A stretch of DNA of 64,000 nucleotides from Dokdonia sp. (GTDB taxonomy: Bacteria > Bacteroidota > Bacteroidia > Flavobacteriales > Flavobacteriaceae). Within the stretch, counting starts at the first letter, position 1. Every line of letters begins with the position of its first letter. The notes below the pieces were generated by a model. That model was not told the DNA's origin. It made no database searches and saw nothing but the letters and a program-made list of their open reading frames with translations. Location of the stretch: NCBI GenBank assembly GCA_020630915.1, contig JAHDIF010000005.1:434-64433 (forward strand). Direction: 5' to 3'. Positions 1,019 to 58,132 of the stretch are shown here, one piece after another. The position numbers and the translations under genes are program-made.

Positions 1019-1032
1019 GCTTTCGCGAAAGC
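1019..1032. repeat. Iterated palindrome GCTTTCGCGAAAGC (intergenic copy)
   Basis: Perfect 14-bp copy lying 7 bp beyond the stop of peptidase E, between convergent transcription from the tRNA gene and pepE. The flanks (TAT on the left, GTATA on the right) partly extend the palindrome. Confidence 0.9.
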
Positions 1033-1038
1033 GTATAT

Positions 1039-1743
1039 CTAAAAATTTAAAATACTTCCAGAAGCAACTTCATAAGGTTCCTTAGTACTTTCAAAAATGC
1101 GGGCTTCTAGTTCTCCTTTGAGTTCAATCTTTTCATCTTTGACTTCTAGCCAGCTGCCTTCTCGAAGTCCAATAACAGGAATGTGGTTGTAAACATGAAA
1201 TTCTTTTATCCTGGTTTCTCTAGTTTCACCCATATGCGTATCTCCTTGTATAGGATCTAGATAGTGCGGATTGATATTGAAAGGTAAAAGCCCGAGTGTT
1301 TTAAAGCTAGAAGGATACACAATAGGCATATCGTTAGAAGTTTGCATAGTGAGACCGCAAATGTTACTTCCTGCACTGGTGCCTAAATAGGGAGTGCCAT
1401 TGAAAAGGACTTGTCGCAAGGTGGGTAAGACATTAGTTTTATAGAGCTGGTTTACGAGTTCAAAGGTGTTTCCTCCTCCGGTAAAAATACCTTGAGCATT
1501 TTCTAGAGCTTGTATAGGATCTGAGAATGTGTGAAGGCCTACGACTGTTAGGTTAATTTTTTGAAATGCTTTTTGAGCAATTGCGGTATAGTCATCATAA
1601 GAGACGCCTCCAGGTCTAGCATATGGAATAAAAATGACCTCTTTTATTTGATAAAAATGATCTTTAAGTGTAGGGAGTAGGTATTCTAGATAACCACTTC
1701 CATATACGGTAGAAGTGCTCGCAACAAGTAGGTTTTTTGACAT
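1039..1743 (-). CDS. pepE: Peptidase E (alpha-aspartyl dipeptidase), family S51
   Basis: Cytoplasmic dipeptidase that cleaves N-terminal aspartyl dipeptides. Length is 234 aa, close to the usual 230. The nucleophile motif GTSAGS is at residues 121-126 (Ser123). It is followed by TSNDMPIVYPSSF with Asp138 and NPHYLD with His160; these match the catalytic Ser120, Asp135 and His157 known for the Salmonella/E. coli enzyme. The FTGGGNTF glycine turn at 87-94 is typical of the class-I-amidotransferase-like fold. No signal peptide. Transcribed alone from its own promoter, convergent to the tRNA gene. Confidence 0.93.
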   Translation of the reverse strand: MSKNLLVASTSTVYGSGYLEYLLPTLKDHFYQIKEVIFIPYARPGGVSYDDYTAIAQKAFQKINLTVVGLHTFSDPIQALENAQGIFTGGGNTFELVNQLYKTNVLPTLRQVLFNGTPYLGTSAGSNICGLTMQTSNDMPIVYPSSFKTLGLLPFNINPHYLDPIQGDTHMGETRETRIKEFHVYNHIPVIGLREGSWLEVKDEKIELKGELEARIFESTKEPYEVASGSILNF

Positions 1744-1763
1744 CTGTGAGATCCTTTTGAGAA

Positions 1764-1793
1764 CAAAAATACATACAAAGCTGTATGAACAAA
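1764..1793 (-). promoter_or_regulatory. Promoter of pepE
   Basis: Read on the minus strand, TTTG (1793-1790) and TATTTTTG (1771-1764) are separated by 18 bp. This is the same arrangement and the same -7 octamer as at the tRNA-Gly promoter. The pepE ATG follows 20 bp after the -7 element. Confidence 0.55.
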
Positions 1794-1840
1794 AGTTTAT
1801 AGCAGTTTTAAGTTTTACTTGTGAGTGCCTGCTGTTTCTT

Positions 1841-1990
1841 TTAGAAGATTTTGTGTACTATGTTTATGAAGATGAAGAAGCTTTGAAGAAAGTAGATCAA
1901 AGTAATTTGTTAAAGTTATTAGAGTATATGACGATTAAACCAAAACAATATTTAGCTTTGAAACAACAAGAGAATACTCTAGATGATTAA
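1841..1990 (+). pseudogene. Remnant of a tandem duplicate of the following gene
   Basis: The frame ending at 1990 encodes LEDFVYYVYEDEEALKKVDQ and continues with NLLKLLEYM and YLALKQQE. It aligns over about 46 residues with the C-terminus of the next gene (IEDFVYYTFEDEKAKQYVD, then LGLLDFM and YRKLKAQE), with roughly 40% identical positions by eye. No matching N-terminal part precedes it; upstream sequence is the pepE promoter. It therefore looks like the 3' tail of a former paralogue truncated by a rearrangement that placed pepE here. Its stop overlaps the start of the downstream gene. It could still be translated as a short peptide, but no convincing start is present. Confidence 0.65.
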
Positions 1991-2774
1991 AAAACTACTA
2001 TTTATAGCACTTTTGAGTAGTGTTTCTTTTTTAAGCACAGACTTGCAAGCTCAAACTCCTATAGAGTTAAAAGGTCAGGTTCTTAATGATACTATAGAAA
2101 GATCTCAACTTACGGTGGTGAATATATCCCTAAGAGAGGGGACTATTACTAATTCAAATGGTGAGTTTACTATACTGGCAAGAGAAAACGACACCATAAA
2201 CGTAAGTGCAGTGCAGTATGAGTCACGACAGTTTGTGGTAAATAAAACGATGTACAACAGAAAGAAGATATCGCTATATCTTATTCCAAAAGTCACGCAA
2301 CTGGATGAAGTAAATATTAGTAATATAGATCTCACTGGAGATATTAAAAAAGATGTCGGGTCAACAAAGCTTCAAAAAATAGTCACCCCAAAAGAACTGG
2401 GCATTCCAGAAAACACGGCTCCAGAAAGAACAGTAGAAGAGAGGCGTTATTATACAGCAGTCACCAGTGGTGCAGGTATTCCCTTGGATGGATTGATTAA
2501 TGCTATGACAGGAAGATTAAAAATGCTTAAAAAACATATTGAAGTGTCACGTTTTGCAAAGAAGGTAGAGGATACTCGCTATCAATATTCAGATAGTATT
2601 TATATGGAAAAGCTTAAGATTCCTAAAGAACTCATAGAAGATTTTGTCTATTATACATTCGAAGATGAAAAGGCAAAACAATATGTAGATACAGGCGACG
2701 CCTTGGGCTTACTAGATTTTATGATTGAAAAAGCTGAAGTTTATAGAAAATTGAAAGCGCAAGAACGGGAATAA
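1983..2774 (+). CDS. Secreted carboxypeptidase-regulatory-like domain protein
   Basis: 263 aa with a signal peptide at residues 1-24 (hydrophobic core LLFIALLSSVSFL, end LQAQ). Residues 28-115 have the pattern of the CarboxypepD_reg-like beta-sandwich seen at the N-terminus of TonB-dependent receptors: IELKGQVLND, VNISLREGTITNSNGEFTI, then a DTINVSAVQYES strand and a LDEVNI linker. Here it occurs without a receptor barrel. The rest is charged and helical, with no recognised enzyme motif, and ends in EDFVYYTFEDE. Stand-alone proteins of this kind are common in Flavobacteriia and have no known function. A fragment of a paralogue lies immediately upstream. Confidence 0.7.
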   Translation: MIKKLLFIALLSSVSFLSTDLQAQTPIELKGQVLNDTIERSQLTVVNISLREGTITNSNGEFTILARENDTINVSAVQYESRQFVVNKTMYNRKKISLYLIPKVTQLDEVNISNIDLTGDIKKDVGSTKLQKIVTPKELGIPENTAPERTVEERRYYTAVTSGAGIPLDGLINAMTGRLKMLKKHIEVSRFAKKVEDTRYQYSDSIYMEKLKIPKELIEDFVYYTFEDEKAKQYVDTGDALGLLDFMIEKAEVYRKLKAQERE

Positions 2775-2805
2775 TGGCATATTTATTGGGAATATAAATG
2801 AGTAC

Positions 2806-2819
2806 GCTTTCGCGAAAGC
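2806..2819. repeat. Iterated palindrome GCTTTCGCGAAAGC (intergenic copy)
   Basis: Perfect copy in the gap before the DUF6702 gene. An in-frame ATG just upstream (2798) would translate it as LSRK, but the product has no leader-like features until the ATG at 2879, so the copy is best seen as intergenic. Confidence 0.9.
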
Positions 2820-2878
2820 ATATCAAAAAACACTCGCAACCGTCTAATGGCTACAGCAATAAAAAAAGACATATTCTC

Positions 2879-3382
2879 ATGAAAATACTTAGACTCCTTG
2901 TTTTTTTTATGATTCCACTGCTTAGTTCTTTTGCAGCTCATAAATACTATTTAACTGTAACAGATCTAGTGTATGATGAGGAAGAAAAAACGATCCAGAT
3001 GATTACAAGGATTTTCTACGACGATCTTGAAGATGTCCTGCAAGAACGATACGATGAGAATATTCTGGTAGACCAAACGGCAGATCAAGAAAAACTTGAT
3101 GCGTACATCACAAAATACTTTAAGGCAAAAGTTGTGATAGAAGTAAATGGAGTGTCTATGCCTATAAACTACTTAGGGAAAGAATATGAAGATGATTATG
3201 TTGTGTGTTATATAGAAGTATCAGATATTGAGTCTATTAGAGACTTCAAAATAGAAAACACTCTTTTAATGGATCTCTTTACAGAGCAAAAAAACATGGT
3301 GCATACTAACATCTTAGGAAAAAAGAAGAGCTTACTGCTGCGTGAAGGGAATACTAAAGCCTTGTTAAATTTTTCTGAATAG
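2879..3382 (+). CDS. DUF6702 family protein
   Basis: 167 aa from the ATG at 2879, chosen because it starts a clean signal peptide (KILRLLVFFMIPLLSSFAAH). An upstream ATG at 2798 would put a basic tail and the palindromic repeat in front of it. The mature part (KYYLTVTDLVYDEEEKTIQM, then RIFYDDLEDVL and an acidic linker) fits the small exported DUF6702 proteins. These are usually found next to an M1 metallopeptidase gene, as here, and are sometimes mislabelled peptidase E. It may be a partner or chaperone of the following protease; that is inferred from the conserved neighbourhood only. Confidence 0.75.
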   Translation: MKILRLLVFFMIPLLSSFAAHKYYLTVTDLVYDEEEKTIQMITRIFYDDLEDVLQERYDENILVDQTADQEKLDAYITKYFKAKVVIEVNGVSMPINYLGKEYEDDYVVCYIEVSDIESIRDFKIENTLLMDLFTEQKNMVHTNILGKKKSLLLREGNTKALLNFSE

Positions 3383-3442: not shown

Positions 3443-5743
3443 ATGATTCGTTTTAAGTATGCATTGTTGTCAATGCTCTTTCTTGCTGGACTGCAAGGGT
3501 TTGCTCAAGAAGAGGAAAAAGAAGAACGTGCTGGAGGGCACGAGAACACGAATAAATTTAGACAACTTTACAATGAGATGTCTACACCTAACTCTTACAG
3601 AACAGCTTCTGGAGCCCCTGGTCATGAGTATTATCAGAACGAGGCAGACTACAAGATGAAAATCTCAATTAACGATGATACACACATATTAAGGGGAAGT
3701 GAGACAATTACGTATAAAAATAACTCACCAGATGATCTTGAGTATCTATGGGTACAATTAGATCAGAATGTAAGAGAGCCAGAATCTCCAGCCAAAGATA
3801 AAAACGGAGATGGTGTATCTGCCGTGAGCCGTCCAGGAGGATTTATCTCTAGCTATATGGGAGCCCCTTTTGATGGAGGATTTAAAATTTCTGAGGTTTC
3901 TCAAAACGGTAGACCATTAAAATACACAAAAAACTGGACGATGATGCGCATCGATATGGGACAACCTTTAAAGTCAGGAGAATCCTATGAGTTCTCCATC
4001 AAGTGGAGTTACCTTATTCCGGAGCACACGGTAGACAGAGCAAGATCCGGTTACGAAACGTTTAATGACGGAAACAAAGGATATGTAATCGCACAGTTTT
4101 TTCCAAGAATGGCTGTGTATAATGACGTAGAAGGATGGCAGAACTATCAGTTTTGGGGTAATGGAGAATTTGCATTACCATTTGGAGACTACGAAGTAGA
4201 TATTACGGTGCCTGCAGATCATTTACTTGACGGAACAGGGGTTTTAATTAACCGTAAAGACGTATATAGTAAAGAAGAATACAAGCGGTGGGAAAGAGCA
4301 ACAAAATCGTATGATAAGCCAGTAATCATAAGAACACAGGCTGAGACAGAAGCTTTAGCTGCTGGAAGATCTACAAAAACCAAGACATGGAAGCTCAGAG
4401 CAGAAAACGTCAGAGATTTTGGGTTTGCCACCTCAAGAAGATTTTTAATGGATGCGCAGGCTGTCAAGTTTCCTCAGCGTGATGTGATGGCAATTTCTAT
4501 TTATCCGCCAGAAGGAAATCCATTATGGGAAGAGTACTCTACAAAAGCGGTTGTACAAACATTAGAAACGTATTCTAAGTTTACATTTGATTACCCGTAT
4601 CCTAAAGCAATTTCTGTACACGCAAAGGGTCAAGGAATGGAGTATCCTATGATCTGTTGGAATTATGGACGTCCTAATGAAGACGGTACCTACAGCGACC
4701 GTACAAAGTATGGAATGATATCCGTAATTATTCACGAAGTAGGGCATAACTATTTTCCTATGATTGTAAATAGTGATGAACGCCAGTGGGGGTGGATGGA
4801 CGAAGGATTAGACACCTTTATGCAATATCTTACAGAACAAGAATTCGGGCAGAACTTCCCAGAAGCAATAGGAGAAAACAAAGCATATCCTTCTAGAAGA
4901 GGAGCACCATCTAAGATTGTTCCTTATATGAAAGGGAATCAAGAATTCATAGCACCTATTATGTCTAATCCAGAAAATGCATTCCAGCTAGGAGCAAATG
5001 CATATGGTAAGCCGGCTACCGCACTTAATATTTTAAGAGAAACCGTAATGGGTCCAGAGCTGTTTGATCACGCTTTTAAAACATATGCACAAAGATGGAT
5101 GTTTAAGCACCCTACACCAGACGATTTCTTTAGAACTATGGAAGATGCTTCGGCAGTAGATCTAGATTGGTTCTGGAGAGGATGGTTTTATAGTACAGAA
5201 TATGTAGACATAGGGGTTAAAGAAGTAAAATCTTACTATGTAACAGATAAAGTAACTAAAGAAGGAAAGGAAATGCTTGCTCGTTTTGGAGTGACAGATC
5301 CTAGTACAATAGACGTTGTTTATGTTGTAGATGAAGAAAGCGAAGATTTTGACCCTAGTATGAAAGGAAAATCTATGTTAGAAAATGCTCCTAGTCTCAA
5401 AGAGTATATGATGGATAACTTCACTCCAGAAGAGAGAGCAAAAATTAAAGAGCCTAAGCATCTTTATAAAGTAGTTTTCGAAAAACCAGGAGGAATCCCA
5501 ATGCCTATTATAGTAGAATATGAATATGCAGACGGTACCAAGAAAAAAGTAACCTATCCAGCACAAATCTGGAGAAAGAACGATTCAGAAGTAAGTAAAG
5601 CAATTGCTTCAGATAAGGAAATTGTAAAAATTACACTAGATCCAGATCTCGAAACTGCAGATATCGATACAGAAAATAACAGCTGGCCTAAGCGCAAGAA
5701 GTTAGGGAAGTTCGATAAGTTTAAAGACAAGGTAAAAGGATAA
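3443..5743 (+). CDS. M1 family zinc metallopeptidase, secreted
   Basis: 766 aa with a signal peptide (residues 1-21, ending GFAQ). Residues about 65-330 form the N-terminal beta-sandwich of M1 aminopeptidases (MKISINDDTHILRGSETITY). The gluzincin site is intact: HEVGH at 431-435, then WMDEGLDTF with Glu454, giving HExxH-x18-E. A gluzincin helical domain follows (DDFFRTMEDASAVDLDWFWR near 555-575), and a charged C-terminal beta domain ends the protein. There is no type IX sorting domain, so it is probably periplasmic or membrane-associated, trimming peptides from extracellular protein breakdown. It follows the DUF6702 gene by 60 bp and is closed by a terminator. Confidence 0.93.
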   Translation: MIRFKYALLSMLFLAGLQGFAQEEEKEERAGGHENTNKFRQLYNEMSTPNSYRTASGAPGHEYYQNEADYKMKISINDDTHILRGSETITYKNNSPDDLEYLWVQLDQNVREPESPAKDKNGDGVSAVSRPGGFISSYMGAPFDGGFKISEVSQNGRPLKYTKNWTMMRIDMGQPLKSGESYEFSIKWSYLIPEHTVDRARSGYETFNDGNKGYVIAQFFPRMAVYNDVEGWQNYQFWGNGEFALPFGDYEVDITVPADHLLDGTGVLINRKDVYSKEEYKRWERATKSYDKPVIIRTQAETEALAAGRSTKTKTWKLRAENVRDFGFATSRRFLMDAQAVKFPQRDVMAISIYPPEGNPLWEEYSTKAVVQTLETYSKFTFDYPYPKAISVHAKGQGMEYPMICWNYGRPNEDGTYSDRTKYGMISVIIHEVGHNYFPMIVNSDERQWGWMDEGLDTFMQYLTEQEFGQNFPEAIGENKAYPSRRGAPSKIVPYMKGNQEFIAPIMSNPENAFQLGANAYGKPATALNILRETVMGPELFDHAFKTYAQRWMFKHPTPDDFFRTMEDASAVDLDWFWRGWFYSTEYVDIGVKEVKSYYVTDKVTKEGKEMLARFGVTDPSTIDVVYVVDEESEDFDPSMKGKSMLENAPSLKEYMMDNFTPEERAKIKEPKHLYKVVFEKPGGIPMPIIVEYEYADGTKKKVTYPAQIWRKNDSEVSKAIASDKEIVKITLDPDLETADIDTENNSWPKRKKLGKFDKFKDKVKG

Positions 5744-5750
5744 TTCTTTG

Positions 5751-5770
5751 TACGCTTTCGCGAAAGCGTA
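5751..5770. repeat. Iterated palindrome, full 20-bp form
   Basis: TACGCTTTCGCGAAAGCGTA, a perfect 20-bp palindrome 8 bp after the M1 peptidase stop. It is the longest form in the window. The 14-bp core GCTTTCGCGAAAGC starts at 1019, 2806, 5754, 8733, 12520, 14196, 18691, 26816, 30286, 32528, 33895, 37275, 47782, 51708 and 58111. A one-mismatch copy starts at 18862 and a two-mismatch copy at 54574. Confidence 0.95.
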
Positions 5771-8419: not shown

Positions 8420-9061
8420 TCATTTTATCCTACTCACAGTAAGCCCATCTCTTATGGGCAATAGTACCGTCTCTAATCTAGAGTCTTCATTAAGAAGCGT
8501 ATTGTATTCTAAGAGAACTTTGGTGTCTATATCTTTATCACTAATAGGTTCTACTACTTTACCACTCCATAACACATTATCAGAGAGAATGATTCCACCA
8601 GGATTCATCTTATCAATAATTGCATGAAAATAATGGATATAGTTTCTCTTATCCGCATCAATGAATACCAAATCAAATGTCATATCTAAACCTGGTATAA
8701 TATCCAATGCGGGTCCTAGGTGCTGGTGTATCGCTTTCGCGAAAGCTGACTTCTCAAAATGTTTTTTCTGAAAATCTACCAATTCTTCTTTAATGTCTAT
8801 CGTATGCAATTGTCCACCTTGTTGAAGTCCTTCTGCCAGACACAATGCGGAGTAGCCTGTAAAAGTCCCAATCTCTAGGATAGTTTTAGGATTCACGAGT
8901 TTAGAAATCATACTCAGCACACGCCCTTGATAGGCACCTGATAGCATACGAGGTTGTAGAATCTTTTGATAGGTCTCGCGAGTAAGTGCCTGCAAATGCG
9001 CCGGCTCTTCTGCTGAATGGGCCACAACATACTCGTCTATATTTTCTGGAAGGAAGTGCAT
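8420..9061 (-). CDS. Class I SAM-dependent O-methyltransferase (COMT-like)
   Basis: 213 aa, the usual size for Methyltransf_3 enzymes. The SAM loop is EIGTFTGYSALCLAEGL at about 63-79. Metal and catecholate residues are visible: Asp135 in FIDADKRNY, and Asp161-Asn162 in LSDNVLWSGKV. It is a soluble cation-dependent O-methyltransferase acting on catechol-like or similar hydroxyl groups; the substrate is unknown. As the last gene of the minus-strand run that degrades kynurenine it might act on an ortho-aminophenol or hydroxyanthranilate derivative, but that is inference. Its start overlaps the upstream stop by 1 bp. Confidence 0.88.
   Translation of the reverse strand: MHFLPENIDEYVVAHSAEEPAHLQALTRETYQKILQPRMLSGAYQGRVLSMISKLVNPKTILEIGTFTGYSALCLAEGLQQGGQLHTIDIKEELVDFQKKHFEKSAFAKAIHQHLGPALDIIPGLDMTFDLVFIDADKRNYIHYFHAIIDKMNPGGIILSDNVLWSGKVVEPISDKDIDTKVLLEYNTLLNEDSRLETVLLPIRDGLTVSRIK
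8733..8746. repeat. Iterated palindrome inside the O-methyltransferase gene
   Basis: Perfect 14-bp copy read as AFAKA (residues 106-110, KSAFAKAIH), in the surface region just after the SAM-binding part. Confidence 0.9.
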
Positions 9062-12065: not shown

Positions 12066-12845
12066 TTACAAACTTTTAGTTCTACCACCATCTACAGGTA
12101 CATTAATACCATTAATAAATGAAGCCGCCTCGCTAGCAAGAAATACAATCGCATTTGCCACTTCTTCTGGTTGTGCAAAGCGTTTTGCAGGCGATGCATT
12201 TGCCATCGCTTTAGATACCTCTTCAATAGTTTTACCTGATTTTTTAGCTTTATTTTCTATAATCTCAGAAAGGCGTCCTGTAGCGGTTGCTCCAGGAAGC
12301 ACATTGTTTACCGTAATTCCATATTGGCCCAGTTCGTTTGCCATTGTTTTGCTCCAGTTTGCCACGGCACCGCGTATGGTATTGCTTACACCTAATCCAT
12401 CAAGAGGCTGTTTTACTGAGGTAGATATCACATTAATAATGCGACCATACCCTTGTTTTTTCATTCCTGGAATCACAGCTTGTGATACAAGGTGATTGGT
12501 TTGTAAGTGTTGGGTAAACGCTTTCGCGAAAGCATCTACCTCTGCATCTACAATAGGTCCACCTGGAGGTCCTCCAGTATTATTAATCAGGATGTGGTAG
12601 TTATTCTTAGTCGCCAAAACAGCCGAAGCCACTTGCTGCGGATTTGTAAAATCTGCAACGATATAACTGTGGTTTTGGGAACCATTATTAGGAAGCTCTG
12701 CAAGAACAGCTTTTAGTTTTTCTTCTGTGCGTGCCGCTAGTGTAACATTTGCTCCTTCCTGCGCAAGGCCTATAGCTGCCGCTTTTCCTATTCCCGCAGT
12801 AGAACCGCAGACGAGGGCGTTTTTATTGTTGAGGTTGAGTTTCAT
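12066..12845 (-). CDS. SDR-family protein lacking the catalytic Tyr and Lys
   Basis: 259 aa Rossmann-fold protein. The cofactor motif is GSTAGIG (14-20), followed by the INNTGGPPGG strand in place of NNAG. Ser141 aligns with the catalytic serine, but 13 residues on, where the catalytic Tyr should be, the sequence is GVSNTIRGA (152-160). This puts Ser154 at the Tyr position and Arg158 at the Lys position. The C-terminal NVPVDGG is typical. It resembles the atypical 3-oxoacyl-ACP-reductase-like SDR group that lacks the full tetrad. It sits next to aminomuconate semialdehyde dehydrogenase, so a role in that pathway is likely, but the reaction is unknown. Confidence 0.85.
   Translation of the reverse strand: MKLNLNNKNALVCGSTAGIGKAAAIGLAQEGANVTLAARTEEKLKAVLAELPNNGSQNHSYIVADFTNPQQVASAVLATKNNYHILINNTGGPPGGPIVDAEVDAFAKAFTQHLQTNHLVSQAVIPGMKKQGYGRIINVISTSVKQPLDGLGVSNTIRGAVANWSKTMANELGQYGITVNNVLPGATATGRLSEIIENKAKKSGKTIEEVSKAMANASPAKRFAQPEEVANAIVFLASEAASFINGINVPVDGGRTKSL
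12520..12533. repeat. Iterated palindrome inside the SDR gene
   Basis: Perfect copy read as AFAKA in DAFAKAF (residues 105-109), in a helix distant from the cofactor motif. Confidence 0.9.
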
Positions 12846-12901: not shown

Positions 12902-14347
12902 TTAATTATACTTTATACAAACATTCTTAGGTTCTGTAAAAAACCGAAGCGCCTCGAGTCCCCCTTCACGGCCTACGCCGCTGGCTTTCATACCACCAAA
13001 AGGTGTTCTAAGATCACGATTAAGGAAGGTGTTTATCCATACAATACCAGCTTCTAATTTTTTAGAGACGCGCATGGCTTTATCGATGTCCTTGGTCCAT
13101 ACGGTGGAGGCAAGGCCATATTGCACGTCATTTGCTAGGGAGACAACCTCTTCTTCTGTATCAAATGGCATAAGCGTGACGACTGGGCCAAAAATCTCTT
13201 CTTGATTTAAACGGCATTTGTTATCTGTAACTTCAATAATAGTAGGTTGCATATAATACCCATTTTCGGAGCCTGTTACTTTGAGCTGATTCCCGCCATA
13301 GAGTATCGTATAGCCTTCATTATCACGCGCGTGCTCCACATAGCTCAGTACTTTTTCTAAGTGACTTTTTGATACAAGTGCACCAAACTTGGTGTCTGCA
13401 TCCATAGGGTTTCCTACTTTATTCTTGCTTACAATGTCTACAAAGTGTGTTTTAAATTGCTTATAAATAGAACGTTCCACATAAATCCTACTCCCACAAA
13501 GACATATCTGCCCTTGGTTTGCAAAACTAGAACGTATAGATTCCTTAAGCATCTTCCCATAGTCACAATCTGCAAAAATGATATTTGGGTTTTTACCTCC
13601 CAATTCCAACGACAGCTTCTTAAACATAGGTGCCGCCGTTCTTGCAATATGTGCTCCAGTGGCTGTGCCTCCAGTAAAGGAAATCGCTTTAATATTAGGA
13701 TGCGCCACAATGGCTTGGCCCACACGTGCACCTTCACCGTGTACAATATTTAATACGCCTGCTGGAAGTCCGACTTCGGTTAAGATTTCTCCCAAAAGAT
13801 AGGCTGTTGCAGGTGTAACTTCACTAGGTTTTGCGACTACACAATTTCCCGCAGCAATTGCTGGAGCCACTTTCCAAGTGAATAAGTATAGCGGTAAATT
13901 CCATGGAGAAATACATCCTACGACACCTATGGGCTCTCGTAAGGTAAAATTCATCGTATTCGTACCTATGGTCTCATGTGCTTCACTCGAAAATTGAGTA
14001 ATGGCTTGCGCAAAAAATCTAAAATTAGCAGATGCTCTGGGTATATCTACTGCCTTGGCCAGCCACAACGGTTTTCCATTATCCCGGCTTTCGGCTGTTG
14101 CCAGTCGGTCGAGGTTAGCTTCTATGAGGTCGGCTATTTTAAGTAAGATTCTGCTTCGATGATCTAATGTGGTATTGGACCAAGAGGGAAATGCCGCTTT
14201 CGCGAAAGCGTACGCCTTTTCAACATCTTTTTGATTACTATTAGGGATTTGCCCATATACTTCACCAATAGAAGGATCGTAATTGTCGAGCCATTCACTA
14301 GAGTCATGCTCTTGGAAAGAACCGTTTATGTAGTTTTTTATTTTCAT
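12902..14347 (-). CDS. 2-aminomuconate (hydroxymuconate) semialdehyde dehydrogenase
   Basis: 481 aa NAD-dependent aldehyde dehydrogenase. Catalytic residues are in place: Asn150 (SPWNLP), Glu248 (LELGGKNP) and Cys282 (NQGQICLCGSR); the coenzyme turn FTGGTATG is at 224-231. Length and sequence fit the ALDH8/AmnC/NbaE group, which oxidises 2-aminomuconate 6-semialdehyde to 2-aminomuconate. Its neighbours, a RidA-type deaminase upstream and ACMSD downstream, support this substrate over a general aldehyde. Confidence 0.88.
   Translation of the reverse strand: MKIKNYINGSFQEHDSSEWLDNYDPSIGEVYGQIPNSNQKDVEKAYAFAKAAFPSWSNTTLDHRSRILLKIADLIEANLDRLATAESRDNGKPLWLAKAVDIPRASANFRFFAQAITQFSSEAHETIGTNTMNFTLREPIGVVGCISPWNLPLYLFTWKVAPAIAAGNCVVAKPSEVTPATAYLLGEILTEVGLPAGVLNIVHGEGARVGQAIVAHPNIKAISFTGGTATGAHIARTAAPMFKKLSLELGGKNPNIIFADCDYGKMLKESIRSSFANQGQICLCGSRIYVERSIYKQFKTHFVDIVSKNKVGNPMDADTKFGALVSKSHLEKVLSYVEHARDNEGYTILYGGNQLKVTGSENGYYMQPTIIEVTDNKCRLNQEEIFGPVVTLMPFDTEEEVVSLANDVQYGLASTVWTKDIDKAMRVSKKLEAGIVWINTFLNRDLRTPFGGMKASGVGREGGLEALRFFTEPKNVCIKYN
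14196..14209. repeat. Iterated palindrome inside the aldehyde dehydrogenase gene
   Basis: Perfect copy read as AFAKA (residues 47-51 of YAFAKAAFPSW), a helix that in most ALDHs carries a similar alanine-rich sequence. Confidence 0.9.
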
Positions 14348-17462: not shown

Positions 17463-18722
17463 TTAAAGTACTTTCTTCAAACGCTCTACCATCTCATATA
17501 CATCTTCAAAACTATTGTAGAGTGGAGCCGGAGCCACACGTATAACATCAGGTTCTCGCCAGTCTGAAATGACACCTGCTTCTGTAAGCTTTGTATGTAA
17601 TTTTTTATCTGCATTTTTTACTTGAATGCTTAACTGGCAGCCACGTTGTGTTGGATCACTGGGTGTAATGATGGATATATGGGCATTGTTGAGATCGTTT
17701 ACTAGGTACTCTAAGTATCCTGTTAACTTCTCAGACTTCGCTCGTATGTTTTTCATACCTGCCGCTGCAAAAATATCCAGACTAGCTTTTACAGCTGCCA
17801 TACTCAAAATGGGAGGATTGGATAATTGCCAGCCTTCTGCCGTTGGGATAGGATCAAAGCCTTTACGCATATTAAAACGGGTGTCTTTATTTTGTCCCCA
17901 CCATCCGGTAAAACGTTGTATGTTTTTATCTGTGTGATGGCGCTCGTGAACAAAGCAACCTCCTAAACTTCCTGGACCGCTGTTTAGATATTTATAGGTA
18001 CACCATACGGCAAAGTCAGGGCCATTCTCGTGCAAATTGGGCATTATGTTGCCTACACCATGTGCCAAGTCAAAACCTACTTTGCTGCCATGGTTATGAC
18101 CTAATTCTGTAATTTTTTTAATTGGGTAAAATTGCCCAGAATAATAATTAGTATTCCCGATGAGTAGTAAAGCAATACTATCACTGTGCTCTTGTACTAA
18201 TGCTTCTAGGTCTTCATAACGGCATAATTCTTCTCCCTCTCTAGGTTGCCATAACAGGAGGCTCGATTCTGGATCAAAACCACGTTGTCGTATCTGGCTT
18301 TCTACCGCATATTTGTCAGAAGGAAAGGCATCACTTTCTATAATAATCTTATGACGTTGTGGTGTAGGATTATAAAAAGAAACCATCATCAGGTGCAGGT
18401 TAGTGGTAAGGGTATTCATAATAACCACCTCACTAGGTTTTGCACCTACAATAGCCGCCATAGGCTCAGAAAGTTGCTCGTGATAGGGCATCCATGGGTT
18501 CTGGGCGTCAAAATGGCCTTCTACTCCCAGATTTGCCCAGTCTTGCAACTCTTGTTCTAAATAATTTGATACCGCTTTGGGTTGGCACCCTAAGCTATTC
18601 CCGCACATGTATATCAGTTCCTTATCGTCTTTATCAACAGGGATATAGAACTGCGCTCTATAGGATTTGAGCGTATCTTTTTCGTCTTGCGCTTTCGCGA
18701 AAGCGAGATTGTTTTCAAACAT
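17463..18722 (-). CDS. kynU: Kynureninase
   Basis: PLP enzyme splitting 3-hydroxykynurenine (or kynurenine) into 3-hydroxyanthranilate (or anthranilate) and alanine. 419 aa from the ATG at 18722, where the normal family N-terminus begins (MFENNLAFAKAQDEKD); an earlier in-frame ATG at 18779 would add an atypical basic stretch. Seen motifs are YMCGNSLGCQPK, MNTLTTNLHLMM (phosphate-binding loop), FDLAHGVGN (the Asp that contacts the pyridine ring) and the PLP lysine in CTYKYLNSGPGS (Lys245). It is the first gene of the minus-strand catabolic run. Confidence 0.95.
   Translation of the reverse strand: MFENNLAFAKAQDEKDTLKSYRAQFYIPVDKDDKELIYMCGNSLGCQPKAVSNYLEQELQDWANLGVEGHFDAQNPWMPYHEQLSEPMAAIVGAKPSEVVIMNTLTTNLHLMMVSFYNPTPQRHKIIIESDAFPSDKYAVESQIRQRGFDPESSLLLWQPREGEELCRYEDLEALVQEHSDSIALLLIGNTNYYSGQFYPIKKITELGHNHGSKVGFDLAHGVGNIMPNLHENGPDFAVWCTYKYLNSGPGSLGGCFVHERHHTDKNIQRFTGWWGQNKDTRFNMRKGFDPIPTAEGWQLSNPPILSMAAVKASLDIFAAAGMKNIRAKSEKLTGYLEYLVNDLNNAHISIITPSDPTQRGCQLSIQVKNADKKLHTKLTEAGVISDWREPDVIRVAPAPLYNSFEDVYEMVERLKKVL
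18691..18704. repeat. Iterated palindrome at the start of kynU
   Basis: Perfect copy read as AFAKA at residues 7-11, within the first helix of kynureninase. It lies only 158 bp from the single-mismatch copy at 18862, the closest pair in the window, flanking the kynU-MFS divergent promoter region. Confidence 0.9.
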
Positions 18723-18841
18723 GAGGTGAACCAATTTTATTGTCCTAAAAATACGCATTATGATAGGATTATGCGCCAAGGTTGTTAATGAAAAATTGTG
18801 CCCAGATGGGATATGATTTCTTTTTCAATTAGCTTTACCGG

Positions 18842-20008
18842 ATGGAATCATTTCGACTTATTCTTTCGCGAAAGCGGTATTTTGCTCCGGTCTGGGTGTT
18901 TGCCTCTATTAATATTATGGTGGGAACATGGGTGCTGTATATACCAAGAGTAAAAGAGAAATTACAGATAGATGATGGTGATATTGGGATTGCGCTTTTT
19001 TGTTATGCCGTAGGAGGATTGCTGGCCGTTACCTTTTCTTCCAAAATTATTGATGCCTTAGGAGCAGGTAGAGCCACTTTATATGGCATAGTAGTATTCT
19101 CATTATTGTTTTTATTTCCCATCGTAGCGCCATCTTTTCTTTTGTTGTGCGGGAGTCTGGTGCTAGCCGGAATGAGCAGTGCCTTTACAGATATCGCCAT
19201 GAATGCGCTTGTGTCTGAGTTAGAAAAGAAAGATGAGGTACATTTTATGAGTGCCGCACACGCTTTTTTTAGTCTAGGCGGTGTGCTAGGTGCGGGTATT
19301 GGGAGTTTACTTATAGGGTATGTAGCCCTTCCTTTTGTGCACGTTCTTGGTGTGGCATTAGTACTTATTACTTCCAATATCTTGCTTGCGCCCCATTTTA
19401 TACAAATTAAAGGGCTACCATCAGAAAAAGAAGAGACAGGATCAGTTCTTAGATTAATCAAACCTTTAATAGGTCTTACGCTTATTGCCTTTATAGTTAT
19501 GGGTAGTGAGGGTTCTTTAGAGCAATGGAGTAAGCTATATCTAGAAGATATTGTAAACGTGAGCACTGAGTGGCTGGCTGGTTTTGGGTTTGTAATTTTT
19601 AGTGCGGCTATGACTTTAGGACGCTTTTTTGGAGATGGAGTAAGCGCACGATTAGGCTCTTACCGCATTATTATTTACGGTTTGCTAATTGCTATTTTAG
19701 GTTATGGTGCTATATTATCAGGACTTCAGGCCTGGAGCCTAGTAGGCTTTGGGTTGGTAGGTATAGGATTTTCAGTCATTATTCCAGAACTCTTTAGACT
19801 AGCAGGTAAAGCAAAGGGAATGACATCTTCTCAAGGTATTTCTCTAGTTGCAGGAATGGGATTTGTGGGGTTTATGGCGGGTCCAGCTATTATGGGCAGC
19901 CTGGCAGATGCCTTTACGCTTTGGGCGAGCTACCTCGCATTGGGTATTGCATGTGCCATTGCCTTAATTGCAGCACTAGTTTTGTATAGCAAAAGAAAAA
20001 GAGCCTAG
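18842..20008 (+). CDS. MFS transporter (YbjJ-like)
   Basis: 388 aa with about 12 membrane helices, transcribed divergently from kynureninase. The N-terminus (YFAPVWVFASINIMVGTWVL, then YIPRVKEKLQIDDGDIG) and the later stretches AAHAFFSLGGVLGAGIG and FGDGVSARLG fit the MFS subgroup containing E. coli YbjJ. The substrate is unknown; divergent pairing with kynU makes a tryptophan-derived compound conceivable but unproven. Its stop overlaps the convergent lipoprotein gene by 4 bp. Confidence 0.85.
   Translation: MESFRLILSRKRYFAPVWVFASINIMVGTWVLYIPRVKEKLQIDDGDIGIALFCYAVGGLLAVTFSSKIIDALGAGRATLYGIVVFSLLFLFPIVAPSFLLLCGSLVLAGMSSAFTDIAMNALVSELEKKDEVHFMSAAHAFFSLGGVLGAGIGSLLIGYVALPFVHVLGVALVLITSNILLAPHFIQIKGLPSEKEETGSVLRLIKPLIGLTLIAFIVMGSEGSLEQWSKLYLEDIVNVSTEWLAGFGFVIFSAAMTLGRFFGDGVSARLGSYRIIIYGLLIAILGYGAILSGLQAWSLVGFGLVGIGFSVIIPELFRLAGKAKGMTSSQGISLVAGMGFVGFMAGPAIMGSLADAFTLWASYLALGIACAIALIAALVLYSKRKRA
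18862..18875. repeat. Iterated palindrome, one mismatch, inside the MFS gene
   Basis: TCTTTCGCGAAAGC, differing from the consensus only at the first base. It is read as LSRK in the cytoplasmic N-terminal tail (ILSRKRYF). Confidence 0.85.
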
Positions 20009-36724: not shown

Positions 36725-37462
36725 ATGAAAACCACAAAAGAATCGTTTACTTTTTATAATGGAGTCCTTTTGTATCCATTACTTTTTGCCCTTTTAATGT
36801 GGGGTGTGTATTGGTTTGAACTGCGTTTTGGAGTAGATTTTACTTCTTGGGGAGTGCGACCTAGAAATGCGCTAGGCTTGCGAGGTGTTTTATTTTCGCC
36901 TTTTATTCATTCTGGTGTAAAGCACCTATGGCACAACACTGTGCCTATATTGGTTCTGAGTGCTGCATTATTTTATTTTTATAAAAAGATTAGCTGGAGG
37001 GTCTTGTTCTGGGTATTAATATTAAGCGGCTTAGGTACTTGGATAATAGGAAGAGCTTCCTTTCATATTGGGATGAGTGGTGTCATCTATGGACTGGCGT
37101 CTTTTTTATTTTTTAAGGGAATACGTACCAGGCATTATAGGTTGATGGCATTGTCTTTTTTAGTAGTGTTTTTGTATGGTAGTTTGGTATGGGGTACGCT
37201 CCCTATGGACGCTAAAATTTCGTGGGAGGGGCATTTGTCAGGATTTTTAGCTGGAGTTTTTTTGGGTTTATTTTGCTTTCGCGAAAGCATACCAAAAAAT
37301 CCTCAATTCCTATGGGAAAAAGAAAACTATATAGAGGATGATGATCCTTTTATGCGCCAGTTTGATGAAAATGGAAATTTCTTTGAACTGCCTAAAGAAC
37401 TGCCTGAAGAAGAAGCATTTTTCTTTAATTATGAAATTAGGGATACAGACTCTGAAGAATAA
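36725..37462 (+). CDS. Rhomboid-family intramembrane serine protease
   Basis: 245 aa with six hydrophobic helices and an acidic cytoplasmic tail (residues 200-245). The catalytic Ser118 is in GMSGVIYG and His170 in SWEGHLSGF. The HLWHNT motif (67-72) supplies the oxyanion residues. It cleaves transmembrane helices of unknown client proteins. It is convergent with rlmB with one base between the stops. Confidence 0.88.
   Translation: MKTTKESFTFYNGVLLYPLLFALLMWGVYWFELRFGVDFTSWGVRPRNALGLRGVLFSPFIHSGVKHLWHNTVPILVLSAALFYFYKKISWRVLFWVLILSGLGTWIIGRASFHIGMSGVIYGLASFLFFKGIRTRHYRLMALSFLVVFLYGSLVWGTLPMDAKISWEGHLSGFLAGVFLGLFCFRESIPKNPQFLWEKENYIEDDDPFMRQFDENGNFFELPKELPEEEAFFFNYEIRDTDSEE
37275..37288. repeat. 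Iterated palindrome inside the rhomboid gene
   Basis: Perfect copy read as FRES (CFRESIPKN), immediately after the last membrane helix at the start of the cytoplasmic tail. Confidence 0.9.
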
Positions 37463-38230: not shown

Positions 38231-38271
38231 GGGATGGTTTTGATTTAGATATCGAACCAAAAGAGACTGAC

Positions 38272-39918: not shown

Positions 39919-39940
39919 ATAACTAGTTTTGAGAATAAAA

Positions 39941-39967
39941 AAAACCGCCAGTAAAACCGGCGGTTCA
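39941..39967 (-). terminator. Intrinsic terminator after the SusCD-linked lipoprotein gene
   Basis: On the minus strand AACCGCC (39965-39959) pairs with GGCGGTT (39949-39943) and is followed by a T run (plus-strand A run 39936-39944). It lies 21 bp before the arylsulfotransferase-like start and should limit read-through. Confidence 0.75.
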
Positions 39968-39988
39968 AATATATAATAAATGTATTTA

Positions 39989-41440: not shown

Positions 41441-41457
41441 AATTATTTTTTAAAGTT

Positions 41458-43101: not shown

Positions 43102-43123
43102 TTCTTAATTTTATTTAAAGTTA

Positions 43124-46375: not shown

Positions 46376-46493
46376 TTTTATAAATTATTTGAATTAGCCA
46401 ATGCCAAAAATCACAATAAAAAGTTAATTACACAACTATTTGTTCCTAAAATTTAGTTTTTTTTAAGGGAATGTTACCCTTGTGTTAACAGTG

Positions 46494-48188
46494 CTAGAAG
46501 CGTACCCCTAATTGAAAGTGTAGTTTGGTGTTGTTAAAATCAAAGTTTTGTTTTTCATTTTTGCCGTTAGCTATAATAATCTTTAAAACTCCAGCCTTAG
46601 TTCTTATTCCTGCACCGAGACCGAAACTAAACAGCGATAATCGTTGCTCGGTTAATTGATTTTCGAAATATCCCAAATCTATAATGCTCTGAACATAAAG
46701 ACTTTGATTGAGAATGTAACGATACTCTGTGTTAAGTGTGGTTACAAAATTTGCAAATATGCTGTTCTCTTCAAACCCTCTTATGCTTGTAATCCCTCCA
46801 AAGCGATAAAGCTCGTTAGTTAAGTAATTATCCGACCATAAAGATTGGGTTGTATTATGTACATAAACCGAATTTTTTTCATTCAGATTAATTATAGCGC
46901 TACCGCTTATAGAAAGTCCTATTTGCCGTTCCTTTATATCGGTCTCTCTATTACCTAGACTGGCAGTTAACGAAAAGGTTGCTTTTGTCGGAAAAAAATA
47001 AGCATCCTGAGGTTTTAGATAGGAGAAGTTTGTTGTAAACTTAGTGGTGTTGTAATCTAGAGTATTATTGATATTGATGAAGTCGTCTTGCAAATCTTCA
47101 GATTGGATGCCCGCGTAACCTACTCCAGTAGTTATATGGGGTGATATTTGATAATAAATATGGGCGCTTTGTGTCGTGGTGGCAAATGTGCTGTCTTTTC
47201 TAAATAGTGAAAGGTTTGCTTCTATGCCCAGGGGGCTTTTAAGGATATAAGGAAGTTTTACAGTTGCGTTTAGTTGAGATTGGTCTTCTCCATCACTTTT
47301 GTAGTTGAGCAATAATGTTTCTCCATAGTTTAAATTATTGGTCAATTGTAAATCTATATAGCCATCAAGTCGAAGGTTGTTAGTTTCTTCATTGGTTGCA
47401 AAACCTAAAAACCCATCAAATCGATTGGTGTTTTGTCTTTCTAAATAGAAGTAAACGATCGTGCTGTCTTTTTTAAATAAGACTTCGGGCTCTTTAATGC
47501 TTGAGGTGAATGAAAGTGAGTTGAGGCGTTGGTTTTGGTCGAGAAGTTCCTGCTGGTTAAAAGTGCTTCCTTTTTTTATGTTTGCATATCTTTTTAAAAA
47601 AGTATTAGGAAAAGTTTCGTAACCTTTAATTACAATGTTATCAATAGTTCGTTTGTTTTTTGATGTGAATAGGAGTTGAGAACTCAGGTTGTTATTTTTA
47701 TTCTTAGATATATTCTGAAGTTGAAAAGTTGCAAATGGATTTCCGTTGTTTGCAGCTATTGAAGTAAGTTTTTTTAAGTACGCTTTCGCGAAAGCGGTCT
47801 CTATTGTAATAGTATCTCCTTTTATGGCAATCCCTGTTTGAGTAACATATTCTTTTAGAATAGCATTGTCTGGTAAATTAATTTTGAGGTATTTGTAGAA
47901 ACTTTTAAGTTCCAGTTGAGCTAGATAGTAGGTAGAATCCTTTTTCGCTAATTTCTTGAGATGAGTATCTACATACCCTTTTGCGACTAAAGTATCTATT
48001 ATAGAGGATGTGTGTTTTTTTAAGGAATTGAGATCTTGGAATACCCTGGTGCGATTTAGGCTATCTATGACCAAAGTTTGAGAGGGTGTTTCTCCCTTTA
48101 TTTCGAGTACCAAATTACTCTCCTGTCCTGCTGCAGAAAATATAGTATAAATATTAAGGACAACAATAAATAAAGTTTTTAGTCTCAA
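46494..48188 (-). CDS. Omp85-superfamily outer-membrane protein (POTRA plus barrel)
   Basis: 564 aa with a signal peptide (ends SAAGQ). Residues about 25-240 look like POTRA-type domains (KKHTSSIIDTLVAKGYVDTH; IDNIVIKGYETFPNTFLKRY). The C-terminal barrel contains FGGITSIRGFEENS (463-476) with IRGF at 469-472, the loop-6 (V/I)RG(F/Y) signature of BamA/TamA/ShlB proteins, and ends in Phe. It is shorter than BamA, so it may be a TamA-like or two-partner-secretion-type factor. It is transcribed towards susC with a 118-bp gap, so it may form a separate unit. Secreted partner unknown. Confidence 0.82.
   Translation of the reverse strand: MRLKTLFIVVLNIYTIFSAAGQESNLVLEIKGETPSQTLVIDSLNRTRVFQDLNSLKKHTSSIIDTLVAKGYVDTHLKKLAKKDSTYYLAQLELKSFYKYLKINLPDNAILKEYVTQTGIAIKGDTITIETAFAKAYLKKLTSIAANNGNPFATFQLQNISKNKNNNLSSQLLFTSKNKRTIDNIVIKGYETFPNTFLKRYANIKKGSTFNQQELLDQNQRLNSLSFTSSIKEPEVLFKKDSTIVYFYLERQNTNRFDGFLGFATNEETNNLRLDGYIDLQLTNNLNYGETLLLNYKSDGEDQSQLNATVKLPYILKSPLGIEANLSLFRKDSTFATTTQSAHIYYQISPHITTGVGYAGIQSEDLQDDFININNTLDYNTTKFTTNFSYLKPQDAYFFPTKATFSLTASLGNRETDIKERQIGLSISGSAIINLNEKNSVYVHNTTQSLWSDNYLTNELYRFGGITSIRGFEENSIFANFVTTLNTEYRYILNQSLYVQSIIDLGYFENQLTEQRLSLFSFGLGAGIRTKAGVLKIIIANGKNEKQNFDFNNTKLHFQLGVRF
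47782..47795. repeat. Iterated palindrome inside the Omp85-like gene
   Basis: Perfect copy read as AFAKA (TAFAKAYLKK), in a POTRA helix. It is the first copy after a 10.5-kb stretch without any (37289-47781). Confidence 0.9.
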
Positions 48189-51390: not shown

Positions 51391-51696
51391 ATGAGTCAAA
51401 AAATAAGAATCAAATTAAAGTCTTACGATCACAACTTAGTAGATAAGTCTGCTGAGAAGATTGTAAAAACAGTAAAAACAACGGGTGCTGTTGTAACAGG
51501 TCCAATACCATTGCCAACACACAAGAAAATTTTTACAGTACTACGTTCTCCACACGTAAACAAGAAGTCAAGGGAGCAATTTCAATTAAGTTCTTACAAG
51601 CGTCTTCTTGATATCTATTCTTCTTCATCAAAAACGATTGATGCTTTGATGAAGTTGGAGTTACCATCTGGAGTAGAGGTAGAGATAAAAGTGTGA
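51391..51696 (+). CDS. rpsJ: 30S ribosomal protein S10
   Basis: 101 aa; [20 protein letters not shown] and [20 protein letters not shown] are diagnostic. S10 also serves as NusE in transcription antitermination, so its place just before a terminator-like hairpin (51787-51816) may matter. Confidence 0.98.
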
Positions 51697-51707: not shown

Positions 51708-51721
51708 GCTTTCGCGAAAGC
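51708..51721. repeat. Iterated palindrome between rpsJ and rplC
   Basis: Perfect copy flanked by TAT/GTA (GTATGC...GCGTAC), in the only large gap of the superoperon besides rpsN-rpsH and rpsK-rpsD. It stands 66 bp before the terminator-like hairpin. Confidence 0.9.
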
Positions 51722-56561: not shown

Positions 56562-56929
56562 TGTTACAGCAAGAATCAAGATTAAAAGTAGCAGATAACA
56601 CAGGTGCAAAAGAAGTTTTGACTATTCGTGTGTTGGGAGGTACTAAAAGAAGATATGCTTCTGTAGGAGATAAAATAGTTGTTTCTGTTAAAGATGCTAC
56701 TCCTAACGGTCAAGTAAAGAAAGGTGCGGTTTCTACTGCAGTAGTAGTGCGTACTAAGAAAGAAGTGCGTCGTCCAGATGGATCTTATATCCGTTTTGAT
56801 GATAACGCTTGTGTTCTTTTAAACGCTCAAGGTGAAATGCGCGGTACACGTGTGTTTGGTCCTGTAGCGAGAGAACTTCGTGATAAGCAATTCATGAAGA
56901 TTGTATCATTAGCGCCAGAGGTGCTTTAA
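56561..56929 (+). CDS. rplN: 50S ribosomal protein L14
   Basis: 122 aa; [20 protein letters not shown] and [20 protein letters not shown] are diagnostic. It forms an intersubunit bridge. Confidence 0.98.
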
Positions 56930-56939
56930 TACATTTAAG

Positions 56940-57251
56940 ATGACAAAGCTTAAGATAAAAACTGGAGATACTGTACGAGTAATTGCTGGAGACCATAAAG
57001 GTCAGGAAGGTAAAGTTGTAAAAGTACTTATCGAAAAGAATAAGGCTATCGTTGAGGGCGTAAATATGGTGAAGAAGCACGAGAAACCAAGTGCGGCTAA
57101 CCCTCAAGGTGGTATAAAGGAAAAGGAAGCGCCGCTTCAAATCTCTAACCTATCTTTAGTAGATGGGAATGGAAAGTCTACAAGAGTAGGGTACCGTATG
57201 GAAGGAGATAAGAAAGTACGCTTTGCAAAAACAACAAACGAAATTATATAG
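56940..57251 (+). CDS. rplX: 50S ribosomal protein L24
   Basis: 103 aa; the KOW motif [20 protein letters not shown] starts the protein, followed by [20 protein letters not shown]. It is an assembly initiator of the 50S subunit. Confidence 0.97.
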
Positions 57252-57253
57252 TC

Positions 57254-57805
57254 ATGGGATACGTACCAAGATTAAAGCAAGAGTTTAAAGATCGCGTTAC
57301 GCCTGCTCTTATAGAGGAGTTTGGCTACAAGAACGTTATGCAGGTTCCTACACTTAATAAGATCGTTGTATCTAGAGGTGTTGGTGCGGCTGTGGCAGAT
57401 AAGAAACTTGTGGAAAACGCAGTTGATGAATTAACACTTATCACTGGTCAAAAAGCAGTATCGACTATTTCTAAGAAAGATGTCGCTACGTTTAAGCTTC
57501 GTAAGGGTATGCCTATTGGAGCAAAAGTAACATTAAGAGGAGAGCGTATGTATGAGTTTTTAGATAGACTCATCACATCTGCATTGCCACGAGTTCGTGA
57601 TTTTAATGGTATTGAAGCTTCTGGTTTTGATGGAAGAGGTAACTACAATATGGGAGTTACAGAGCAAATTATTTTTCCTGAGATCAATATTGATCGTATT
57701 AAGAAGATAGACGGTATGAATATTACCTTTGAAACTTCTGCAGGAACAGATAAAGAAGCAAAATCATTATTAACGGAACTAGGTTTACCTTTTAAAAAGA
57801 ATTAA
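57254..57805 (+). CDS. rplE: 50S ribosomal protein L5
   Basis: 183 aa 5S rRNA-binding protein; starts [20 protein letters not shown] and contains [20 protein letters not shown] and [20 protein letters not shown]. Confidence 0.98.
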
Positions 57806-57807
57806 TT

Positions 57808-58077
57808 ATGGCTAAAGAATCAATGAAAGCCCGCGAGGTGAAAAGAGCAAAAATGGTTGAGAAGTATGCTGAGAAACGTAAAGCTTTAAAAGAAGCTGGT
57901 GATTACGAAGCATTACAGAAATTACCGAAGAACGCATCACCTATTCGCAAGCACAACCGTTGCAAGTTAACGGGTCGTCCTAAAGGGTATATGAGACAGT
58001 TTGGTATCTCTCGTGTTATGTTTCGTGAGATGGCTAATAAAGGTCTTATTCCAGGAGTGAGAAAAGCTAGCTGGTAA
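57808..58077 (+). CDS. rpsN: 30S ribosomal protein S14, zinc-free form
   Basis: 89 aa. [20 protein letters not shown] and [20 protein letters not shown] identify S14. Only one cysteine is present, so the zinc-binding CxxC pairs of the short form are absent and this is the long, zinc-independent type. Confidence 0.97.
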
Positions 58078-58097
58078 CATAGTATAAACTGGAGGAA

Positions 58098-58132
58098 GGT
58101 TTTGCTTTAAGCTTTCGCGAAAGCGGAAAACC
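58098..58132. repeat. Hairpin with iterated palindrome between rpsN and rpsH
   Basis: The perfect palindrome copy (58111-58124) is enclosed by GGTTTT (58098-58103) and AAAACC (58127-58132), giving a two-part stem of 7 and 6 bp in the 74-bp rpsN-rpsH gap. No T run follows, so it would be an RNA structure or DNA site rather than a terminator. Confidence 0.75.

Follow-up and report, generated by a model that had tools for sequence, protein, structure and literature searches.

A highly iterated 14-bp palindrome with strand-asymmetric flanks and even spacing in Dokdonia genomes

Introduction

The reader is known for only a few of the short motifs dispersed through genomes; Chi, uptake sequences and organiser sites, which are among these few, have taught us how cells tell self from foreign DNA or arrange their chromosomes. 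A 64-kb stretch of Dokdonia sp. DNA (Flavobacteriaceae; GenBank assembly GCA_020630915.1, contig JAHDIF010000005.1, positions 434 to 64,433), referred to here as the window, poses the same question for the 14-bp palindrome GCTTTCGCGAAAGC, present there in 15 perfect copies and one copy with a single mismatch: what reads it, and why are so many exact copies kept? We find that GCTTTCGCGAAAGC forms the core of a symmetric DNA element under selection, with a strand-asymmetric flank of about 25 bp on each side. The Dokdonia element is long, exact, symmetric and evenly spaced; motif-poor relatives, together with a lineage whose copies seem to be decaying, allow comparison, and Dokdonia has cultured members. 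A search of the accessible literature did not find the 14-mer in print. The motif goes unnamed in the accessible portions of the literature on highly iterated palindromes (HIPs), on Dokdonia palindromes and on over-represented or evenly spaced Bacteroidetes motifs; the string TTTCGCGAAA occurs in published papers, none of which bears a related title.

Results

The palindrome is iterated genome-wide in a few genera

A first-pass annotation of the window had reported 15 perfect starts and a one-mismatch copy at 18862, all of which proved exact, and had judged them far too many for chance. That judgement stands: in 100 dinucleotide-shuffled versions of the window the mean number of matches was 0.00 (maximum 0), and 300 shufflings of synonymous codons gave a mean of 0.05 in-gene copies (maximum 2) against the 11 observed by our open reading frame (ORF) caller. 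These 11 are read in the AFAKA (six), LSRK (three) and FRES (two) frames and four copies are intergenic. The annotation had counted ten and five, a difference consistent with its having taken the copy at 2806, 8 bp inside ORF 2798..3382, as intergenic. It had also staked its case on a genome-wide count clear of expectation and on enrichment beyond the window. The window's own genome (G000) carries 685 perfect copies in 2.97 Mb, and the same pattern reversed, used as a control, has none.

All 18 Dokdonia genomes searched, five of them less than 90% complete, hold 369–905 copies each. Copy number does not track genome size (903 in 5.5 Mb, 905 in 3.3 Mb). Genome G001, a single 3.29-Mb contig, has 899 copies; two Dokdonia genomes have about 230–275 copies per Mb, and site density in two Dokdonia records is 0.21–0.28 per kb. 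Among 395 genomes of the family, a draw from a larger group, six exceeded 400 copies: two of Dokdonia (g1), three of a second genus (g10) and one of a third (g162, to which genome G178 belongs); the next highest had 19. In a sample of 392 genomes of the phylum, which partly overlaps the family sample, none exceeded six copies except the window's own. Perfect and one-mismatch copies in whole genomes number 685 and 123 in G000, 664 and 74 in G223, 578 and 87 in G026, and 408 and 128 in G178. Three genomes of a further genus (g126) hold 6–10 perfect copies and 23–29 within one mismatch (controls 0–1), which seem, from these counts, to be decaying remnants. No other iterated palindrome appeared, at the thresholds used, in 20-kb samples of motif-poor genera.

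The copies in the window are as follows; species counts are of sampled species with a homologue, including its own.

1019..1032, perfect, intergenic, 6 bp past the 3' end of ORF 1039..1743 (-)
2806..2819, perfect, LSRK frame, in the first bases of ORF 2798..3382 (+), or intergenic should the ORF truly begin further downstream
5754..5767, perfect, intergenic, 10 bp past the end of ORF 3443..5743 (+)
8733..8746, perfect, in an O-methyltransferase-like gene, 8420..9061 (-)
12520..12533, perfect, in a short-chain dehydrogenase gene, 12066..12845 (-)
14196..14209, perfect, in an aldehyde dehydrogenase gene, 12902..14347 (-)
18691..18704, perfect, in a kynureninase-like gene, 17463..18779 (-); kept in 2 of 3 species
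18862..18875, one mismatch (first G to T), in an MFS transporter gene, 18842..20008 (+)
26816..26829, perfect, LSRK frame, in a RadC-family gene, 26505..27200 (+); 12 of 12 species
30286..30299, perfect, in a DUF5723 gene, 29771..31171 (+); 1 of 12 species
32528..32541, perfect, FRES frame, in an FG-GAP/ASPIC gene, 32032..35361 (+); 7 of 7 species (20-kb sample)
33895..33908, perfect, AFAKA frame, second site of the same FG-GAP/ASPIC gene; 5 of 7 species
37275..37288, perfect, in a rhomboid-family gene, 36725..37462 (+); 12 of 12 species
47782..47795, perfect, in a POTRA-domain gene, 46494..48188 (-)
51708..51721, perfect, in the gap between the 101-aa ORF 51391..51696, which by operon order we take to be rpsJ, and the ribosomal protein L3 gene
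58111..58124, perfect, in the gap 58078..58151, by operon order presumably rpsN-rpsH; the same site is present in genome G003

A near-exact symmetric core with strand-asymmetric flanks

We analysed the anatomy of the element in 40 stretches of 20 kb (800 kb in total) of G001. The core is nearly exact, with 226 perfect copies and 17 with one mismatch (89 and 8 in 400 kb of G223); by half-site position 1 to 7, the 17 mismatches number 5, 3, 0, 0, 4, 4 and 1. The consensus has a symmetric preferred extension, TTAC-core-GTAA. Beyond this, the strand that runs 5' to 3' toward the core is depleted of C at positions -15 to -5 (0.06–0.07, versus about 0.19) and has G at about 0.3. The bias fades by about 25–30 bp from the core on both sides, is the same in genes and gaps and both upstream and downstream with respect to the sense strand, and was repeated in 400 kb of G223. 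The inner pieces of the palindrome are rare apart from the whole 14-mer: only 87 of 313 occurrences of TCGCGA, and 47 of 499 of the half site GCGAAAGC, lie outside it.

The site is not polar, as the annotation had argued: core and flanks are both symmetric, and a mixture fit for a hidden orientation gained 131, compared with 106–129.5 in ten null sets, which is not clearly above the null. Pairing of the two arms showed no general covariation in G001, and selection for an extended hairpin was accordingly dropped. Single arm columns departed from shuffled pairs in both directions, with -5 and -4 matching less (z -4.3 and -2.0) and -2 more (z 2.6). A further candidate, avoidance of perfect palindromes of at least 24 bp (1 versus 10.9 expected in G001), was abandoned because G223 has 6 versus 4.6 expected.

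Copies are spaced as if one were needed every few kilobases

Of the copies in the G001 sample, 114 fall within ORFs and use all three frames, and 112 extend wholly or in part beyond them. Non-coding DNA makes up only 7.6% by this ORF caller, which probably over-calls ORFs. Intergenic copies are a median of 29 bp from the neighbouring stop codon and 77 bp from the neighbouring start, and 44 of 107 lie within 20 bp of a stop. This closeness to stop codons speaks for an element acting in RNA or transcription (a hairpin, a terminator or the binding site of a regulator). However, about half of the copies are in genes, the arms lack general pairing covariation, and the even spacing described below persists when the null reproduces the division of copies between genes and gaps, so that we regard such an element as the least probable of all the explanations weighed here, and a very remote one. 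The annotation's own exclusions, of a protein motif (all three frames are used and it is the exact DNA that is kept) and of a single regulon, both hold. Close pairs of sites were considered as autoregulated promoters; the two pairs examined offered nothing convincing.

Close neighbours are strongly under-represented. Only 9 of 186 gaps in G001 are shorter than 1 kb, compared with 55 in the context-matched null, and the Fano factor per 20 kb is 0.30. In G223, none of 69 gaps is below 1 kb (14.6 expected), the smallest is 1871 bp, the Fano factor is 0.18 and the coefficient of variation 0.39 versus 0.84. Among the first 81 sites of G178, 0 of 80 gaps fall below 1.3 kb (12.9 expected); a separate 400-kb sample of that genome has 1 of 31 below 1 kb (4.8 expected), and G000 has 0 of 47 listed gaps (9.7 expected). 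Mean spacing is about 4 kb in Dokdonia and g10 and nearly 8 kb in g162.

Given that the exact DNA is selected independently of frame, strand and gene, and that coverage is on the kilobase scale, we infer a protein that recognizes the palindrome as a whole and requires every point of the DNA to have a copy no more than a few kb away; a further copy closer than about 1 kb to the first would bring no gain. Longer site-free intervals also occur. The longest in the window, 37289–47781 (10.5 kb), includes a SusC/RagA-type outer-membrane gene, and a 34-kb stretch of G001 at 287–322 kb (loci L235 and L236), most of it taken up by a pair of giant ORFs (4431 and 5060 aa), has one inner site.

A chromosome organiser could use sites of this kind: a dimeric nucleoid or condensation protein would bind the palindrome every few kb and anchor or space the chromosome, and the sites would be kept for structure. 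The even spacing and the perfect two-fold symmetry fit this explanation, as do the near-exact core, the long retention of sites (below) and their spread over the whole chromosome. Density, which the annotation had proposed to compare with the positions of origin and terminus, is nearly flat round the G001 chromosome, with a slight excess toward the skew minimum (rho -0.32, p 0.047; 6.1 sites per 20 kb in the origin half and 5.2 in the terminus half); it is higher in GC-richer stretches (rho 0.40, p 0.01). Against an organiser, the matS, Noc-binding and SlmA sites are fewer and are zoned near the origin or terminus, and the C-poor strand running toward the site does not follow from organisation.

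Sites are retained as exact DNA and arise by substitution

In a pooled comparison, 340 of 363 ordered site–homologue pairs are exact, compared with 1.4–2% of same-phase control 14-mers at 60–80% protein identity; the pairs are not independent, coming from 14 site groups of which seven have homologues in other species. The species that keep the site in the seven in-gene groups, their own included, number 12/12, 12/12, 7/7, 4/4, 5/7, 2/3 and 1/12. At 32528, the 14 bases are identical in the window and in nine of ten other aligned Dokdonia genomes (rows of one contig being counted once) while neighbouring codons vary; the site is lost in G006 (locus L221). At 30286, by contrast, the site was found only in its own species among the aligned rows and so is young. 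Compared with the closest relative, the protein there has I-to-L and K-to-R changes, and relatives have ordinary codons with no insertion. This site thus arose by substitution, which settles, for this copy, whether substitution or insertion was responsible, a comparison that the annotation had called for.

Sites can also be compared between genera. Of those that can be aligned, 5 of 11 in g162 and 3 of 13 in g10 fall exactly on Dokdonia sites, and one of nine g10 sites coincides with a g162 site. Where sites do not coincide, the counterpart carries at least four mismatches, so that a site is found whole or not at all. In both G003 and G178, a site occupies the gap position that corresponds to 51708. 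A quick ribosomal-protein tree placed g10 apart (approximately unbiased test, p 0.033 against a single motif-rich clade), with three changes of the motif-rich label, and made the single sampled g126 genome sister to g162. An independent gain in g10, as the tree would suggest, was set aside since 3 of 13 g10 sites match Dokdonia positions exactly. On these alignments we argue for common ancestry of the shared positions followed by losses, the tree being perhaps misled by a long g10 branch; the non-shared majority of g10 sites leaves room for much independent turnover. No clear case of horizontal transfer between g10 or g162 and Dokdonia was seen among the best 45 rows of the samples.

Two ribosomal-protein gaps hold other repeats. 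In G178 (locus L199), a 19-bp hairpin, CCTGCCTGCGAAAGGCAGG, apparently interrupts the rpsN-rpsH homologue of the 58111 site, which looks like the insertion of a small repeat, and just past rpsJ in the rpsJ-rplC gap (loci L189–L207) several motif-poor genera hold other short inverted repeats, for example TTCCCGCTTTCGCGGGAA in G056.

Copies on mobile and viral DNA

The few copies in motif-poor genera include several clustered, with site-like flanks, in heavy-metal efflux islands. Four such islands, in G091, G086, G199 and G301 (loci L001, L003, L004 and L008), have genes for an RND pump, a CusB-like protein and a P-type ATPase, and L002 and L006 also belong to this class; the clusters in L009 and L010 are of another type or without an assigned family. 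We read the island copies as imports from motif-rich hosts. In G091, G086, G199, G103 and G153, two sites lie exactly 933 bp from each other, so that a single operon appears to have been dispersed, its source probably being a motif-rich host.

On viral contigs, at least 120 stretches match the pattern, many with background-like flanks, a statistic partly biased by the choice of loci. Twenty loci chosen by site number and context yielded 17 viral records (414 kb) with 51 perfect and 15 one-mismatch copies, the control having none; since each record was picked for having a site, the excess over selection is 34 copies. Some records show spacing of several kb. Several are interrelated, with a common spacing of 4480 bp and, in two, identical positions. 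Ten site-bearing viral ORFs fall, where families are named, among head-protease or head, HNH-endonuclease and primase-like proteins; the rest have no family or one of unknown function. In a phage collection, the relatives of the viral records, less than 60% identical to them, have Flavobacterium, Cellulophaga and others as hosts. A search of named phages and plasmids for the extended site gave only weak, unrelated matches, and one viral stretch had no near match.

Four candidate protein families do not track the motif

We searched for candidate readers in eight of the 22 known motif-rich genomes and in 16 motif-poor genomes. ParB_N (PF02195) is encoded by one gene in each of the eight rich genomes, and an alignment of 23 of the 24 proteins showed the DNA-binding region of ParB to be much alike whether the genome is rich or poor in the motif. 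The C5 methyltransferase family PF00145 was found in five of the eight, the N6/N4 methyltransferase family PF01555 above cut-off in two, and ComEC (PF03772) in all eight rich and all 16 poor genomes. None of these four families tracks the motif over the 24 genomes. A shared C5 or N6/N4 methyltransferase and a ParB paralogue are therefore not supported, any more than a single regulon or strong zoning by origin and terminus. In motif-poor G103 (C1:2364602-2366734), a ParB_N stretch interrupted by three stops comes after a second ParB_N gene (616-aa frame); G400, G142 and G050, motif-poor as well, have long ParB_N frames too.

These results disfavour nucleoid occlusion through a Noc-like ParB paralogue, one of the annotation's suggestions, given the single ordinary ParB and the near-uniform density. 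They count, together with the likeness of ParB in rich and poor genomes, against an organiser in general, as does the presence of the site on some viral contigs; MatP and SlmA were not included in the search. We rank a chromosome-organising site second, as possible but doubtful; it and the Chi-like site discussed below are the two explanations that agree best with the data.

Methylation of part of the site, with methyl-directed repair accumulating copies, would make the element HIP-like; its palindromic form, high iteration and origin by substitution all recall what has been proposed for cyanobacterial HIPs, as far as the available text of PMC4390886 goes. Because the inner pieces seldom occur outside the 14-mer and both methyltransferase families are patchy in rich genomes (PF00145 is missing from three of eight; other methyltransferase families were not searched), we consider this route very improbable, and the HIP1-like element or modification-enzyme target of the annotation loses favour with it.

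An uptake signal, the remaining suggestion, would work as it does in Pasteurellaceae and Neisseriaceae: competent cells would prefer site-bearing DNA, and uptake and recombination would spread and keep the copies. In density, exactness and origin by substitution the element is like uptake sequences, its coverage-like spacing suits the uptake of fragments, and ComEC is present in every rich genome tested. Known uptake sequences, however, have a directional, non-palindromic core, and here the palindrome is perfect. Within the family, two Riemerella species are naturally competent and Flavobacterium johnsoniae was not, according to the accessible part of PMC7965970. Uptake is ranked third, as possible yet unlikely, since ComEC does not discriminate between rich and poor genomes, being present in all 24 of those tested, and both palindromy and viral carriage speak against it. 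The loss of over-representation from zero to one mismatch is also steeper here, at about 630-fold (G001 sample), 265-fold (G000) and 140-fold (G178), than the 92-fold of H. influenzae and 82-fold of N. gonorrhoeae given in the portion of PMC1939737 available, though in G178 not by much.

Discussion

A proposed symmetric, Chi-like site for break processing

Our preference, held narrowly over a chromosome organiser and only tentatively, is for a reading absent from the first-pass annotation: a symmetric, Chi-like self-DNA site for recombination and break processing. Chi acts on the 3' strand, and RecA prefers GT-rich strands. A DNA-end-processing or recombination machine would read the palindrome on arrival from either side, cease destroying DNA there and leave a 3' single strand for recombination. 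In both directions the resulting 3' strand would be the C-poor, G/T-rich flank, and such a tail would suit RecA loading; the strand-asymmetric flanks in this way yield a sharp mechanistic prediction. Viruses that carry the site would pass as self and so gain from it. Besides the flanks, the copy numbers across Dokdonia, the near-exact core, the kilobase-scale coverage, the retention of sites in homologous genes and the copies on viral records speak for this reading.

Several observations weigh against a Chi-like site. Known Chi sites are short and polar, and the half site seldom occurs outside the palindrome, a rarity that also makes a one-strand reading of the octamer GCGAAAGC unlikely. The flank bias is weak in G178, and the avoidance of longer palindromes in G001 was not seen in G223. 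Ten of the 13 g10 sites with a Dokdonia homologue are not common to both genera. A crude Walker-A pattern gave no candidate machine in the sampled part of G001, no search having been aimed at the RecBCD/AddAB families. The viral records resemble flavobacterial phages distantly and may be prophages, in which case their copies could reflect selection on the host chromosome.

A broader claim is conceivable, which we put forward as speculation: that the element is a new genome-wide mark of self DNA, a 14-bp palindrome with a strand-asymmetric footprint of 60-odd bp, ruler-like spacing and adoption by viruses, whose two-way DNA-processing machine would treat unmarked stretches as foreign or broken.

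Comparison with known systems

The organiser sites parS, Noc, matS and SlmA are, like this element, symmetric palindromes of similar length; here the copies run to hundreds, are evenly spread and hardly zoned, and come without a ParB paralogue. The uptake signal sequence of Haemophilus and the DNA uptake sequence of Neisseria likewise occur in hundreds of near-exact copies with intergenic enrichment and a coverage-like distribution, whereas the element described here is palindromic, loses over-representation more sharply at one mismatch and is found on some viral contigs.

HIP1 of cyanobacteria (GCGATCGC) is also a palindrome iterated through genes and gaps, of substitution origin and lineage specific. 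Its core is 8 bp rather than 14 bp, and it reaches 1000–2000 copies per Mb in the accessible text of PMC4390886, several times the density in Dokdonia. The present element shares the genome-wide over-representation of a short palindrome that marks a HIP and has neither that copy density nor, in the two families searched, a methyltransferase in every genome; it adds long strand-asymmetric flanks and a strong exclusion of close pairs. With Chi of the RecBCD and AddAB systems it has in common genome-wide dispersal, over-representation, kilobase-range coverage and a G/T-rich strand on the side of the future 3' tail; in place of a short polar motif it is a far longer palindrome, readable in two directions, whose half site is not enriched. 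The element thus has individual features of HIPs, of uptake sequences and of Chi, and corresponds to the full definition of none of them.

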